Shown piece by piece: positions 4,551-54,277 of a stretch of 64,000 bases of DNA (its first letter is position 1; the number at the start of each line of letters is the position of its first letter). The stretch covers positions 62,001-126,000 of the forward strand of contig JAKQSI010000065.1 of the NCBI GenBank assembly GCA_029570205.1, read 5' to 3'. Origin of the DNA: Candidatus Omnitrophota bacterium (lineage in GTDB: Bacteria > Hinthialibacterota > Hinthialibacteria > Hinthialibacterales > JAKPRU01). The position numbers were made by a program, and so were the translations under genes. The notes under the pieces were generated by a model. It saw nothing but the letters and a program-made list of their open reading frames with translations, did no database searches and had not been told where the DNA came from.

Positions 4551-5693
4551 TCAGGGAGCCTCTTCCGCTCCTCCTCCGGCTTCTGCCTGACCTCCTCCGC
4601 CTTCTGCCGCGCCTTCTCCACCGGCAATCGATGCGGCCTCCCGAGCGCGATCCACAGCATACATTCCGGCTGGGCCACCCCCTCCTCCACCCATGTATCC
4701 GCCACCGCTGCCGTACCCCACCATACCCAACCCCTGCTGGTTCTGAAGCACTTGAACATTCAGCTCGAAGCGGTATGTCTCGTCATCATACGGCTGCCCG
4801 TCGGGGCCGATAAACTGCCCCAGAAAGTTCTGCGTCCAATCCTCCACCTTGGAGGTCAGGTTCGCCACAAGGATTTCCTTCTTCATCACACCCGATTCAA
4901 CGCTTTCCGCAGTAACCGGAACCCGGAAAAACTCTATCGGATTCTTTCGTTTTACCGTCCGCTGGTTTGCCCACGCTTCCCGAGCATATCCGAGAACTTC
5001 CAACAGGAGATTATTTTGTGCCATGCGGATCGTCTGATCGATCTGCTCCACCAGCTTGGGATCACGCGCCTCGGCTTTGTTCTTTTCCAGAACCGCGATC
5101 GTGAACTCCGTCAGGCGCTGTTTAAACTGCTCCGGGTCCAGCTGTTGGTCATAAAGGACTTCCCGATTGTCCAAAAGAGCCTTCGCCCGGGCTTTCTCCA
5201 ACATGGCGAAGGAGCCTTGGTCCATGACCGTCATCACGGCATCAACCAGCACCTTCTCCAACATTTTTTTATAGCGAATTGCGAACGGACCAAGATACTT
5301 GTCCCGGATTTCCTCGATGTTGCTCGGAACGCCGTCGAACGGGACCTCGTCGCCGTGAGTACCGTCATCGTAGTACTTCCCGGCAACCTCATCCACCGGA
5401 ACCTGCTTGGCATACACGCGATAATCAATCAAGTCCCCGTACACAGCGCAATAAATTGCCTCGCCTTCCTTCACAATAACAAAATTTGGAACCTGAGCTC
5501 CGGCCCCCCCGCCGTATCCCCCCATTCCGAATCCATATCCTCCCATGCCCATGCCGCCCATTCCCATTCCCATTCCCATGCCGCCCATTCCCATGCCGCC
5601 CATTCCCATACCACCGCCATATTGGGCAGAAGCCGGAACAGCAACAGATAGAATGAGAATTGCGAGGGTTGGGAGCTTTCGAAAACGTATCAT
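4551..5693 (-). CDS. Exported protein with Gly-Met-rich low-complexity segments
   Basis: 380 residues. A signal peptide (MIRFRKLPTLAILILS, cut after ASA around residue 23) is followed by about 45 residues of GMGMGG-type repeats, a globular core of about 250 residues (from VPNFVIVKEGEAIYCAVYGD), and a Gly/Ala/Glu-rich tail containing GGGYMGGGGGG. The core holds mixed helices (EKARAKALLDNREVL, IRMAQNNLLLEVLGYAREAW) and no family I recognise. It is the first gene after the promoter at 5777-5805 and probably heads the cluster. Gly-Met repeats are uncommon; they could form a flexible linker, a metal (copper) binder through Met, or an adhesive surface. These roles are inference. Confidence 0.8.
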   Translation of the reverse strand: MIRFRKLPTLAILILSVAVPASAQYGGGMGMGGMGMGGMGMGMGMGGMGMGGYGFGMGGYGGGAGAQVPNFVIVKEGEAIYCAVYGDLIDYRVYAKQVPVDEVAGKYYDDGTHGDEVPFDGVPSNIEEIRDKYLGPFAIRYKKMLEKVLVDAVMTVMDQGSFAMLEKARAKALLDNREVLYDQQLDPEQFKQRLTEFTIAVLEKNKAEARDPKLVEQIDQTIRMAQNNLLLEVLGYAREAWANQRTVKRKNPIEFFRVPVTAESVESGVMKKEILVANLTSKVEDWTQNFLGQFIGPDGQPYDDETYRFELNVQVLQNQQGLGMVGYGSGGGYMGGGGGGPAGMYAVDRAREAASIAGGEGAAEGGGGQAEAGGGAEEAP

Positions 5694-9300: not shown

Positions 9301-11160
9301 CTATCGCGAATACAATGCCTTTTCATAAAGAGCCAGCAGGCATTGAACGTGTTCTTCCATGGTAAGCGCCGGGGGGACACCCTTTCGCAACTCGTCAAGA
9401 ATCTCCGGGCTGTTGCAGATTCGATTCACCACTTCTCGGAGGCTGCGCCAGTCTCTGTGATGGAATTGCAAACCACAAACACCGTCAGGGACAAACTCCG
9501 CCATCCCTCCGACATTGGCGGTCACCACCGGTATCCCCGCCTGGAACGCTTCATGCACAGTCAGCGGCGAATTCTCCCACCAAATGGACGGAACCACGAT
9601 CACGTCCACATCCGCAAGAACATCGCAAACGCGGTCGCAATCGTAGCGTCCCTTGAACTCGATCGCGGATGAACCCGCCGCCAGGGAGTGTAAGAGCCGT
9701 TCGTATTCGGGATAACCGTCATACCCCGGAAAAAAGCCATATATCCGAAGAATTCCTTTTGACGGATCGATGTCTCGAAACGCCCGGATCAAGAGATCCA
9801 CACCTTTCGGCGGTATCCAGGTTCCGATATATGCAAATCGAACAGGGCGGTGGACAGGGCGGGCAAGATCAGGCGTCCTCTCCATCGGCGGGAATCCGTT
9901 GTCCAGGTACACGATCTTCTCGGAGTCAAGTCCATGGCGGATAAAAAAGTCTCGAAGGAAGCGGGAAGGCGAAATGAACAGGTCCACATTCTGAAAGACC
10001 TCGCGGGTGAATCGCTGACGGTGACGAATACCGGCTGTGGCGCGTGGGCTGAATCGAGTCACCCACCCGGAGACATACTGGGCCAGGAAATGTATAACCC
10101 TCTCCCTCAGGATTGCGGGACTCGCCATACCCCTCTCCCCCAGGATTGGGGGAGATACAGAGGGGGTTGACTTCCCAAAATCTTCACACAACCGCAAATC
10201 CCCCCAACCGGCCGTGCAGAAATCCAGGCAACCGCCCGGCCCCGGAGCAGTGAACAAGGTCATTTCAACTTCCCGTCCACGCCAGGGAGACAAATCAATT
10301 TCAACAGGATGCCAGCCCCGGTCCGCAGGCTTGTGTTTTGCGTCCAGATACTGCTCGAAAACAGGTTCGCCGTCTACCTCCACCGCAAACTCAACCCCCT
10401 CGCCTTGTTTGTCATAAGTGGATGAGTGCATCGCAATCGAGAAACACAAGCGGGCCTGCTCCGGCACACGAATTTTCCTGCGAATCGTGGACGGCGGATG
10501 GGCTTGAATTGTCGGTACCGGCCGTCCGTCGAGATCGAACATCGTTTCCGCGACAAACCGCTTGTCGGGTGTTTCTACCGATGCGCCCTGCAATGTTCCG
10601 ACAAGATCTTTTCGGGCGGATTTCGTCCATGTTCTCAATCGGGATGCCAGGGACGAGAGAGGTCCTTTCAACAGCTGCGGTGCAAGACAGTTCCGGCATC
10701 CGTGCAATGTCGGACCGTCACATCGCTCCAATGCCGGGGTGAGCATCTGCCCGCGCTGGCAGAGAAGCCAATAATCATGCAGTGTCATTACCGTGGCAAT
10801 GCCTCGCCATTTCGCCTCTCTGGGAAGGTCCATCGAGAGATTGGTGAGATGGTGGAAATGCACAATATCCGGAGCGACCTTCCCCAGCCAGTGGCTGAAA
10901 ATCGCCGCCACTGCCCGGTTCAGGTAGGTCCGCTCGAATTGTCGGCTGAATCGGTGGGTATGGTTGATCCGCGCAACGGGAATGCCGTCGAATGTCTCCT
11001 CAATCACACGGTATTCCTCATCGGCAGGATTGTTGTATCGGTAAAAAACGAGAACCTCATGCCCCCTGCTTCGGAGGAATCGCGCGGTGTGATAGACACA
11101 GGCCTCCGAACCGGCCCAGCTGAATGGGGGAAAAGTATGATTGACCAGAACGATTTTCAT
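9301..11160 (-). CDS. GT4 glycosyltransferase with an inserted beta-rich domain and a translated repeat
   Basis: 619 residues from ATG 11160 (MKIVLVNHTFPPFSWAGSE). The N-terminal GT-B Rossmann domain (about 1-180, with APDIVHFHHLTNLSMDLP) and the C-terminal domain (about 390-619, with VRFAYIGTWIPPKGVDLLI and the nucleotide-sugar loop PSIWWENSPLTVHEAFQAG) are typical of family GT4, which uses UDP- or GDP-sugars with retention. Between them lies an extra segment: about residues 200-328 look like a beta-sandwich (VEFAVEVDGEPVFEQ, GWHPVEIDLSPWRGREVEM), and about 330-355 are encoded by dispersed repeat copy B. Ordinary GT4 enzymes are about 370-420 residues, so the insert explains the size. First gene of the minus operon with methyltransferase, kinase and panE-like genes. 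Confidence 0.85.
   Translation of the reverse strand: MKIVLVNHTFPPFSWAGSEACVYHTARFLRSRGHEVLVFYRYNNPADEEYRVIEETFDGIPVARINHTHRFSRQFERTYLNRAVAAIFSHWLGKVAPDIVHFHHLTNLSMDLPREAKWRGIATVMTLHDYWLLCQRGQMLTPALERCDGPTLHGCRNCLAPQLLKGPLSSLASRLRTWTKSARKDLVGTLQGASVETPDKRFVAETMFDLDGRPVPTIQAHPPSTIRRKIRVPEQARLCFSIAMHSSTYDKQGEGVEFAVEVDGEPVFEQYLDAKHKPADRGWHPVEIDLSPWRGREVEMTLFTAPGPGGCLDFCTAGWGDLRLCEDFGKSTPSVSPPILGERGMASPAILRERVIHFLAQYVSGWVTRFSPRATAGIRHRQRFTREVFQNVDLFISPSRFLRDFFIRHGLDSEKIVYLDNGFPPMERTPDLARPVHRPVRFAYIGTWIPPKGVDLLIRAFRDIDPSKGILRIYGFFPGYDGYPEYERLLHSLAAGSSAIEFKGRYDCDRVCDVLADVDVIVVPSIWWENSPLTVHEAFQAGIPVVTANVGGMAEFVPDGVCGLQFHHRDWRSLREVVNRICNSPEILDELRKGVPPALTMEEHVQCLLALYEKALYSR
10096..10170. repeat. Dispersed palindromic repeat, copy B, inside a coding sequence
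   Basis: Two hairpins in tandem: CTCCCCCA-ATCC-TGGGGGAG and a weaker CTCCCTCA/GGGAG pair, flanked by AACCC and GGGTTGA. Read in reverse it matches copy C (15242-15329) over the first 34 bases with one mismatch. It is in frame with the GT4 gene and encodes SPPILGERGMASPAILRERV. Confidence 0.8.
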
Positions 11161-11273
11161 GGGTTCGTCATCTGTTCCGTGGAGATATCTGATGGTACAA
11201 TAGGGTGTATCGGTACGATTCAAAAGGACAAGGGTCCGTCGCGAAAAGTCGGGCCGAGGAGGATGTGCATATT

Positions 11274-14008: not shown

Positions 14009-15353
14009 CGGGACTGGTTCCGGTTCGCGCCCTGATTTCCTTTAATCGATTGAAAATGATCCCGGAAATCAATTCGTTTCCGGTCGGATTTGTATGCACA
14101 ATATCTTCAAACACAGTATTTTGACTCTCCGAAAACGGGGAAATATCGCCGACATTCAATACGGAAATCCCCTGCTGTTCGAGAACATTCGCGGATCGTT
14201 TGATGAATTCCCCATACAGAATATGAAAATCATTACCGTAATCGGAATAATTTTCCCTCAAGAATGTTTCCATGTGCAATACAATCTGTTTTTCCTCTTC
14301 CGTGTGGAACTGCTTTTGCCCCAGATCCGGCTGAAATACCAACAGGAAAACCACATTCCGGGCACGACACAAATCGCGAAACTTCAGAATAATCCCCGTG
14401 TAGACATCCACAAGATCCTGTAGATAATCCGAGGAGGGGGGTATTGTTTCAGCCGTTCGGTCCGGTATAGGAGGAACTGCATTGTTCGGCTTGAAAAGGC
14501 TCTTTCGAATTTCGGAATAAGCGCGACTTCTGTGAAGTAATGCCCCAAAAAAACGGGCGGTCGCGCTGGAGATTTGTGTCTGTGATTTGTAATTCGCGAG
14601 AAGCTCGGTCTCAATCTGGGTCAGCACGAACAGATTGGACCGCAGTTCCTCGCGGGTTTTCTGATGGCCGAGGGCGTACTTATGAAACCAGGCCCCGAAA
14701 AAATCGTTCCACCCGTCGTAGACTACAATCAGGTCCGGCTGCAAGTCGATCAGTTCCGTAACCGTGTATGCAAGTTCCTGTCCTGCAAGGAACCCGCACA
14801 CCCCCGCATTGATCCATTCGGCGCCGCTGTTGCGCCGCTGAAGGCATGCGACAAGGGTCTCCATGTCGCTGTGCGCACCCAATCCGAAAACCGCCGATCC
14901 CCCTACCATGATGGCGCGCGGTTTCGGTCCCCGCACGGGATCGACTTCCGGCCCTCGAAACCCCAGAGAATTGATCGTGAACGTCTCCGTCTTTTGATTC
15001 GGCAGGTTCTTGTACAGTGTGAACGGGGAAATCGCCAGTTTCAGCGGCCCCTCGGCGGTGGAAATGCGTTGTCCGTTATGCGTATAAAAGCAAAGCGCAT
15101 ACGGATTGATCTCAACCTTGGATTCCCGAACACGGAAGAAAACCTCTACGCACACAAAACCAACCAGGAGGCCGGCAAGCAAGAGAATTCCGCGAAGGAA
15201 CCATTCGGAGATCGAACGGGATTTGTGCGGGATTGGCGAATTCAACCCCCTCTGTATCTCCCCCACTCCTGGGGGAGAGTGTTTAGTCGTTTCCCTCCCC
15301 AAGATTGGAGAGGAGCAGGGTTGGGTTGAGAAATTTCCCTGGAGATCATCCAT
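14001..15353 (-). CDS. Membrane-anchored SGNH/GDSL hydrolase-like protein
   Basis: 450 residues. After a repeat-derived N-terminus (residues about 9-37) there is one membrane span (about 52-70, LRGILLLAGLLVGFVCVEVF), then a large extracytoplasmic SGNH domain. Visible blocks are PRAIMVGGSAVFGLG (Ser of block I as GGSA), AEWINAGVCGFLAGQELA (block II), DLIVVYDGWNDFFGA (block III, Asn) and VFEDIVHTNPTGNELIS (block V, His with HTN instead of HPN). Such enzymes add or remove acetyl groups on glycans. The start ATG 15353 overlaps the stop of the preceding SGNH gene by 8 bases, supporting translation of the repeat. A downstream TTG start cannot be excluded. Confidence 0.8.
   Translation of the reverse strand: MDDLQGNFSTQPCSSPILGRETTKHSPPGVGEIQRGLNSPIPHKSRSISEWFLRGILLLAGLLVGFVCVEVFFRVRESKVEINPYALCFYTHNGQRISTAEGPLKLAISPFTLYKNLPNQKTETFTINSLGFRGPEVDPVRGPKPRAIMVGGSAVFGLGAHSDMETLVACLQRRNSGAEWINAGVCGFLAGQELAYTVTELIDLQPDLIVVYDGWNDFFGAWFHKYALGHQKTREELRSNLFVLTQIETELLANYKSQTQISSATARFFGALLHRSRAYSEIRKSLFKPNNAVPPIPDRTAETIPPSSDYLQDLVDVYTGIILKFRDLCRARNVVFLLVFQPDLGQKQFHTEEEKQIVLHMETFLRENYSDYGNDFHILYGEFIKRSANVLEQQGISVLNVGDISPFSESQNTVFEDIVHTNPTGNELISGIIFNRLKEIRARTGTSPDE
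15242..15329. repeat. Dispersed palindromic repeat, copy C, inside a coding sequence
   Basis: Begins TCAACCCCCTCTG, with hairpin one CTCCCCCA-CTCC-TGGGGGAG, a short spacer, hairpin two CTCCCCAAGATTGGAGAG, and ends GGGTTGGGTTGA. It is the longest complete copy and its outer TCAACCC/GGGTTGA ends are complementary. It lies in frame at the start of the SGNH gene and encodes SSPILGRETTKHSPPGVGEI; the insertion orientation relative to the gene is opposite to copy B. Confidence 0.8.
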
Positions 15354-49690: not shown

Positions 49691-49738
49691 CGTCATCGCG
49701 AGGAGCAGCCCGGAGTCTGCGAAGGGCTGCGACGCCCA
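49691..49738. repeat. Palindromic repeat of the GTCATnGCGAGGAGC type
   Basis: CGTCATCGCGAGGAGC followed by a 7-bp inverted repeat GCAGCCC (49705-49711) with GGGCTGC (49724-49730). Similar elements occur in many bacterial and metagenomic genomes. It directly precedes the tandem array, so the intergenic block 49691-50102 is a compound repeat. Bases 49490-49690 contain no gene. Confidence 0.55.
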
Positions 49739-49766
49739 TCGACAGGCACGGAGGCCTGTCCCACCA

Positions 49767-50102
49767 GTAGGCCAGGCGTCCCTGCCTGGCAGCTAAGTAG
49801 GCCAGGCGTCTCTGCCTGGCAGCTAAGTAGGCCAGGCGTCTCTGCCTGGCAGCTAAGTAGGCCAGGCGTCTCTGCCTGGCAGCTAAGTAGGCCAGGCGTC
49901 CCTGCCTGGCAGCTAAGTAGGCCAGGCGTCTCTGCCTGGCAGCTAAGTAGGCCAGGCGTCCCTGTCTGGCAGCTAAGTAGGCCAGGCGTCCCTGCCTGGC
50001 AGTTACCCAGTAGGCCAGGCGTCTCTGCCTGGCAGCTAAGTAGGCCAGGCGTCCCTGCCTGGCAGTTACCCAGTAGGCCAGGCGTCTCTGCCTGGCAGCT
50101 AA
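49767..50102. repeat. Tandem array of 11 palindromic 30-bp units
   Basis: The unit GTAGGCCAGGCGTCTCTGCC...TGGCAGCTAA recurs at 30-base steps from 49767; eleven copies of GCCAGGCGTC are seen (49771, 49801, 49831, 49861, 49891, 49921, 49951, 49981 and three more). Two intervals are 33 bases long, with AGTTACCCA in place of AGCTAA. Each core, CCAGGC-GTCTCT-GCCTGG, is a 6-bp inverted repeat, so every unit can fold. Sites differ by C or T at one place (CCCTG or TCTG). On the plus strand each unit reads VGQASLPGS then stop. Confidence 0.9.
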
Positions 50103-54096: not shown

Positions 54097-54216
54097 TGCT
54101 GTTTCTCCTCTCCCCTCTCGTGTTCTGGGAGGAATTTCATTAAGCCCAGCGGTGAAAATATCATGACGGCGAAGCGGGGGATATTGAAAGGCAGGTTCTT
54201 GTGCCGGCCTTTCTTT

Positions 54217-54267
54217 GCCAGGCAGGGACGCCTGGCCTACTGGTGGGACAGGCCTCTGTGCCTGTCG
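54217..54267. repeat. Single inverted copy of the array unit and its leader
   Basis: In reverse orientation these 51 bases match 49740-49790 with one mismatch (CGACAGGCACnGAGGCCTG, then CCACCAGTAGGCC and the CCAGGCG...CCTGG core). They lie between the MLE-type gene and the coiled-coil gene, 11 bases beyond the stop of the latter. This ties the array to a dispersed element. Confidence 0.85.
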
Positions 54268-54277
54268 CTGCAGGCTT

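Follow-up and report, generated by a model that had tools for sequence, protein, structure and literature searches.

A dispersed palindromic repeat lies in frame within a glycosyltransferase gene of an Omnitrophota genome

A palindromic element within a GT4-type glycosyltransferase gene

The window analyzed here is a stretch of 64,000 nucleotides (G000:C20:62001-126000) from a MAG of 4.39 Mb in 131 contigs with 4% contamination, whose closest named relatives are Candidatus Omnitrophota MAGs. In this window, a GT4-type glycosyltransferase gene carries a copy of a short palindromic element, designated F1. For detection of F1 we used the covariance model R1, which describes the first hairpin unit and was built from 14 sequences, the GT4 copy not being among them. 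G000 stands for the own genome, G001 and G002 for two congeners. The features of the window are:

9301..11160, minus strand: host gene, GT4-type glycosyltransferase (uninterrupted ORF, Pfam, PDB fold matches)
10096..10170, minus strand: F1 palindromic element in the two-hairpin form, encoding STPSVSPPILGERGMASPAILRERV (residues 331-355)
10131..10170, minus strand: first F1 hairpin unit (TCAACCCCCTCTGTATCTCCCCCAATCCTGGGGGAGAGGG), R1 59.3 bits, E=4.3e-13
10098..10130, minus strand: 33-nt stretch (11 codons) with the second hairpin, edges uncertain by a few bases; missing in both congeneric orthologues (MAFFT alignment with L061 and L062)
15242..15281, plus strand: second F1 copy, R1 49.9 bits
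48588..48628, plus strand: weak F1-like copy, R1 31.0 bits

The GT4 protein consists of 619 amino acids starting from the ATG at 11160, with the stop codon at 9301-9303; use of an alternative upstream TTG at 11223 would yield 640 amino acids. The Pfam domains Glyco_transf_4 and Glyco_trans_1_4 flank the repeat on either side, which bears out the original prediction that the host gene keeps both GT-B domains, and the predicted fold resembles GT-B enzymes in the PDB, for example MshA. Purifying selection acts on the gene, with dN/dS values outside the element of 0.21 (against G002) and 0.10 (against G001). Inside the element, the values are about 0.8 and 1.1, calculated from 16 codons only.

Read in the sense of the gene (window 10170 down to 10096), the element has the sequence TCAACCCCCTCTGTATCTCCCCCAATCCTGGGGGAGAGGGGTATGGCGAGTCCCGCAATCCTGAGGGAGAGGGTT. 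The proposed in-frame translation holds with regard to the uninterrupted reading frame and the encoded peptide; the repeat itself starts a few residues earlier than first described. An AlphaFold2 model has pLDDT values below 50 at residues 327-355, a segment situated between the final strand of the extra beta domain and the helices that lead to the C-terminal domain. This low-confidence segment is consistent with the suggested position of the repeat in a linker between the two domains. Folded as single-stranded DNA, an 86-nt stretch scored better than 198 of 200 dinucleotide-shuffled versions (z=-2.4). This folding excess is modest, and the real argument for the element is its dispersed family.

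F1 is a dispersed family of short palindromes

BLAST of the repeat against its own genome returned 43 matches, and R1 detected 113 at E<=0.05, about 45 of which are strong copies. Together with the E-value of the GT4 copy itself, these counts confirm that the repeat in the glycosyltransferase gene belongs to a dispersed, multi-copy palindromic family. The aligned F1 core, TCAACCCCCTCTGTATCTCCCCCAATCTTGGGGGAGAGGG, forms a hairpin with a six-base bulge. In some copies a second hairpin follows 10-16 nt downstream, as is the case in the GT4 gene. Its initial description as a two-hairpin repeat is fair insofar as the double form recurs in several copies, but most copies have a single hairpin. Most of the strong copies are located outside conserved coding regions, and the second copy of the window (15242..15281) lies near the start of a neighbouring gene and not within a conserved protein. 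At the corresponding position G001 has no F1, and a repeat of the F3 type described below is found nearby.

At E<=0.01, R1 gave 127 matches in G001 and 96 in G002. With the same cut-off, four genomes of another family of the same order contained 48, 35, 7 and 2 matches; two additional members of this family and five genomes from other families gave no match. A search of Rfam with F1 resulted in sub-threshold matches only, and a literature search by the repeat core sequences returned nothing relevant.

The glycosyltransferase site in related genomes

The same glycosyltransferase gene is present in G002 (94% amino acid identity) and G001 (83%), in both cases with a one-hairpin F1 at the same place that is 33 nt shorter than the own copy. 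TCAACCCCCTCTGTATCTCCC is identical across all three genomes. Six orthologues from the other family (44-51% identity) do not contain the repeat. As two congeneric MAGs share the site and the other family lacks F1 there, the insertion predates the split of the genus and does not stem from an error of assembly. The insertion is therefore not recent in the own genome. The original prediction had named two ways in which it could fail, namely the same segment in unrelated genera and a frameshift caused by the assembly; the segment is missing from the six other-family orthologues, and two independent congeneric MAGs carry it at the same codons.

It had also been expected that homologues would lack exactly this segment, which turned out to be only partly true. 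The repeat is indeed absent from the six orthologues, but their native linkers are of similar length and leave no clean gap (34-41 residues in the other family, 38-42 in the congeners and 49 in the own protein; alignment, hand count). F1 may have replaced rather than lengthened the linker, the one of other genera being as long as the one-hairpin form. The second hairpin would either belong to an older full element that was trimmed in the congeners or have come with an incoming two-hairpin copy. A 33-nt tandem duplication was considered and rejected: by hand count, 8 of 33 positions are mismatched between the halves, more than expected of a duplication postdating the separation from G002.

F1 copies in other genes

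To survey the copies inside genes, the surroundings of the 44 strongest copies in the own genome were inspected. Among them, 13 matches in 12 genes lie deep inside long reading frames: MutL (two tandem matches), HypF, a UvrD/PD-(D/E)XK nuclease (AddB-like), a BpsA-like protein, GT4, a MAF/MptE-like protein, an amine oxidoreductase, a DUF4175-like protein, a second glycosyltransferase and three proteins without family assignment (L118, L129, L152). A membrane protein (L216), found among the weaker copies, is the 13th own gene. Where domain boundaries are known, F1 sits in linkers. In HypF, the insert is located between the zf-HYPF and the YrdC domain, with 33 residues in comparison to 8 in PDB 3vth, and in MutL it lies between the ATPase part (ends at 326) and MutL_C (starts at 467). 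The own BpsA protein has a 42-aa insert that is absent in the congener G001. Thus, F1 copies are found in frame inside conserved genes with intact host domains (MutL, HypF, UvrD/PD-(D/E)XK, GT4 and others), and orthologues of other lineages lack the insert in the cases of BpsA (G001), HypF (PDB) and the glycosyltransferase (other family). None of 20 F1-like copies sampled from the other family (G003-G005) was in a long conserved gene, and on this small sample the colonisation of genes looks specific to this genus.

The MutL linker contains tandem F1-type units with a 93-nt period, all in frame, with about three units in the own genome (L115) and in G001 (L159) and two in G002 (L184). In the amine oxidoreductase of G001 (L165 39-102), 24 nt (TTCGACAGGCTCAGGACAACGCCC) are located inside the F1 loop, again in frame, and a similar sequence occurs near the own F1 copies L153 and L154.

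Reading frame and phase

For 11 F1-bearing genes besides GT4, all congeneric orthologues examined are open in a single frame without stops. A Markov coding test of both flanks revealed no convincing frameshifted gene; the test is weak where the flanks hold other repeats and failed to call MutL, DUF4175 and L152, which were accepted by ORF length, family match or orthology. Two cases on the same strand in a different frame (L130 and L210) are both at gene starts.

All four genes with a sense copy read it in the STPSVSPPI frame. Of ten genes with an antisense copy, eight read it in the SPPKIGGDTEGVE frame, which is one of two that are open (the ten include L232 from G001, and the eight are seven own genes and one from G001). 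The frame that contains a stop is never used among the genic copies. This phase bias is modest (sense P=1/27, antisense two-sided P about 0.11), the sample being too small for strong statistics. Taken together, the suggested search for further genic copies and their phase showed F1 in frame in 13 own genes, mostly in one phase per strand.

Other palindromic families occupy the same sites

In G001, several F1 sites are occupied by other families, F2 or F3, or by nothing, and are still in frame. The F2 core CCCTCACCCCAACCCTCTCCC is present in exact form at the UvrD/PD-(D/E)XK nuclease site of G001; G001 further has F2-type repeats in HypF and at a single intergenic site. F3 (CCCTCCCCAAGATTGGGGAGGG-like) is found in the MAF-like gene and at two further sites of G001. 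Both are real dispersed families: F2 cores were counted 53 times in G000, 248 times in G001 and 51 times in G002 (none in a reversed control), and strand-wise matches of the nearly self-complementary F3 amount to 9, 65 and 4, respectively. F2 is commonest in G001, the species in which it holds positions that are occupied by F1 in the other two. For a phase test, the copies of F2, F3 and F4 inside genes at the fetched loci are too few.

Because the core at the G001 nuclease site is an exact F2 consensus, repeated occupation or replacement is favoured there over divergence. Tentatively, certain codon positions in the genus might serve as standing parking sites, at which one palindromic family displaces another, unrelated one while keeping the frame; this could happen through targeted insertion or through recombination among the repeats. 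Examples are F1 versus F2 in the nuclease linker and in HypF, and F1 versus F3 in the MAF-like protein. If this reading is true, linkers would be continually re-written by whichever family expands in the respective species.

Candidate mobilisers and traces of insertion

A RAYT was rejected as mobiliser of F1, as Y1_Tnp genes are rare and none of them adjoins F1 in the three genomes. G000 has three such genes and G002 two, none of them beside F1, and G001 has none despite its 127 F1 matches; accordingly, no REPtron, that is a RAYT flanked by the repeat, was found in these incomplete MAGs. One Y1 (IS200/RAYT-like) transposase gene (L114, G000:C48) adjoins a tandem array of its own repeat, which is unrelated to F1. 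Near-identical longer repeats containing F1 are present at the ends of many contigs of G001 (L187, L189-L194) and flank a ribE-like gene at L187. Identical, high-scoring copies at contig ends were considered as parts of an autonomous element, a possibility that was dropped as the locus examined contains longer repeats surrounding ribD/ribE-like genes, and no transposase was seen there. The empty sites in BpsA and C120 have diverged flanks and exhibit no evident target-site duplication or clean insertion boundary. The idea of a selfish element that tolerates linkers is plausible, because species differ in what occupies a given site and some sites are empty; no mobiliser was found to go with it.

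Discussion

The GT4 copy is very probably a tolerated, non-autonomous palindromic repeat that was inserted before the congeners diverged and was kept in frame. F1 would be a short repeat of the REP or MITE type, spread by some enzyme. Before the three sequenced congeners diverged, one copy would have been transposed into the linker that joins the extra beta-sandwich domain to the C-terminal half of the GT-B fold, and it would have been kept because it left the frame intact, brought no stop in frame and added only a flexible, Pro/Ser/Gly-rich and presumably neutral peptide. The glycosyltransferase, probably still active, stayed under selection while the insert would have drifted, by a 33-nt (11-codon) gain here or by losses in the congeners. 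The same filter may act throughout the genome, so that genic copies survive only in frame and in tolerant places.

Of the alternatives, it is unlikely that the segment has been domesticated as a functional linker or signal (a flexible hinge or an interaction motif) selected on its sequence. Retention at the same site in three species and some phase preference across genes would fit, but hairpin number and sequence of the glycosyltransferase copy vary among the species, dN/dS inside it is near 1 (few codons), and other sites are empty or held by unrelated families. We regard as slightly less likely still that the hairpin works on the level of DNA or RNA (transcription pausing, mRNA stability or a recombination site) and that its translation is incidental. 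While the hairpin potential and the position of most strong copies outside conserved coding regions agree with such a role, substitutions break the remaining hairpin in both congeneric glycosyltransferase copies and the insert is nonetheless kept; in addition, both orientations occur inside genes and no Rfam family reaches the threshold. That a GC-rich low-complexity linker resembles the repeat by coincidence, or that assembly or binning of the fragmented and slightly contaminated MAG misled us, is highly improbable given the match to a specific model (E=4e-13) and the element at the same codons in two independent MAGs.

The tolerated repeat has parallels in known systems. The palindromic elements of Rickettsia and Wolbachia (RPE/WPE; Ogata and colleagues; PMC10969869, PMC2229807, PMC3767692) are likewise dispersed palindromes in frame within protein genes, at exposed or linker positions and common to orthologues within a genus, and PMC2229807 cites evidence for translation and activity of a guanylate kinase that bears an RPE. 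The parallel to RPEs drawn in the original prediction holds as a description of behaviour (dispersed copies, in frame in own genes, in linkers, with open host genes); no sequence relation is claimed. In contrast to the 100-150 bp of RPEs, the F1 unit has about 40 nt (75 nt in the double form), and its host is an Omnitrophota bacterium with a genome of 4-6 Mb. In Rickettsia, RPEs of different groups can lie close together in orthologous genes, and PMC3767692 leaves open whether this reflects a hotspot or divergence; at F1 sites, the replacement of one family by another, clearly unrelated one at a single codon position has been documented.

Intragenic REPs of the GTAG/CGTC families (Di Nocera and colleagues 2013, PMC3733652) are located inside ORFs, many in DNA repair genes. 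Like F1, they are palindromes of 20-40 bp, singly or as dimers, partly in ORFs including DNA repair and recombination genes, and different REPs at about the same recB site in two Xanthomonas species (PMC3733652) parallel the F1/F2 case at the UvrD/PD-(D/E)XK nuclease. Unlike these REPs, F1 ends in TCAACC/GGTTGA with no obvious GTAG or CGTC tag, and no RAYT flanked by F1 was found. Translated MITEs (ERIC and the 107-bp form of Correia/NEMIS; PMC2229807) resemble F1 in being small and non-autonomous, with open frames that are fused in frame to genes, but differ in size and sequence, and no target-site duplication was seen for F1 at the two empty sites, where the flanks have diverged.

F1 shows RPE-like and intragenic-REP-like behaviour in another phylum; new are the phylum, the repeat families and a clear instance in which one family replaces another at the same codon position. 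Our literature search found no report of protein-coding palindromic repeats in Omnitrophota, and such repeats would thereby be extended to a phylum with larger, non-reduced genomes. The findings bear on the open question of RPE-4/6/7 in Rickettsia, namely whether different palindromes found at a single intragenic site have diverged from one another or reflect a hotspot that was invaded repeatedly. F1-bearing genes such as MutL and HypF make tests of protein tolerance to inserts practical.

Two further repeat tracts were observed in the window. At 49706-50098, a tandem array of a 30-nt palindromic unit, apparently another repeat family, lies next to a sigma-factor-like ORF, and an inverted copy is found at a distance of 4 kb (54216-54270). 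Short tandem repeats of the CCCAT(G/T)CC type at 5521-5617 probably encode a Gly/Met-rich protein tail.
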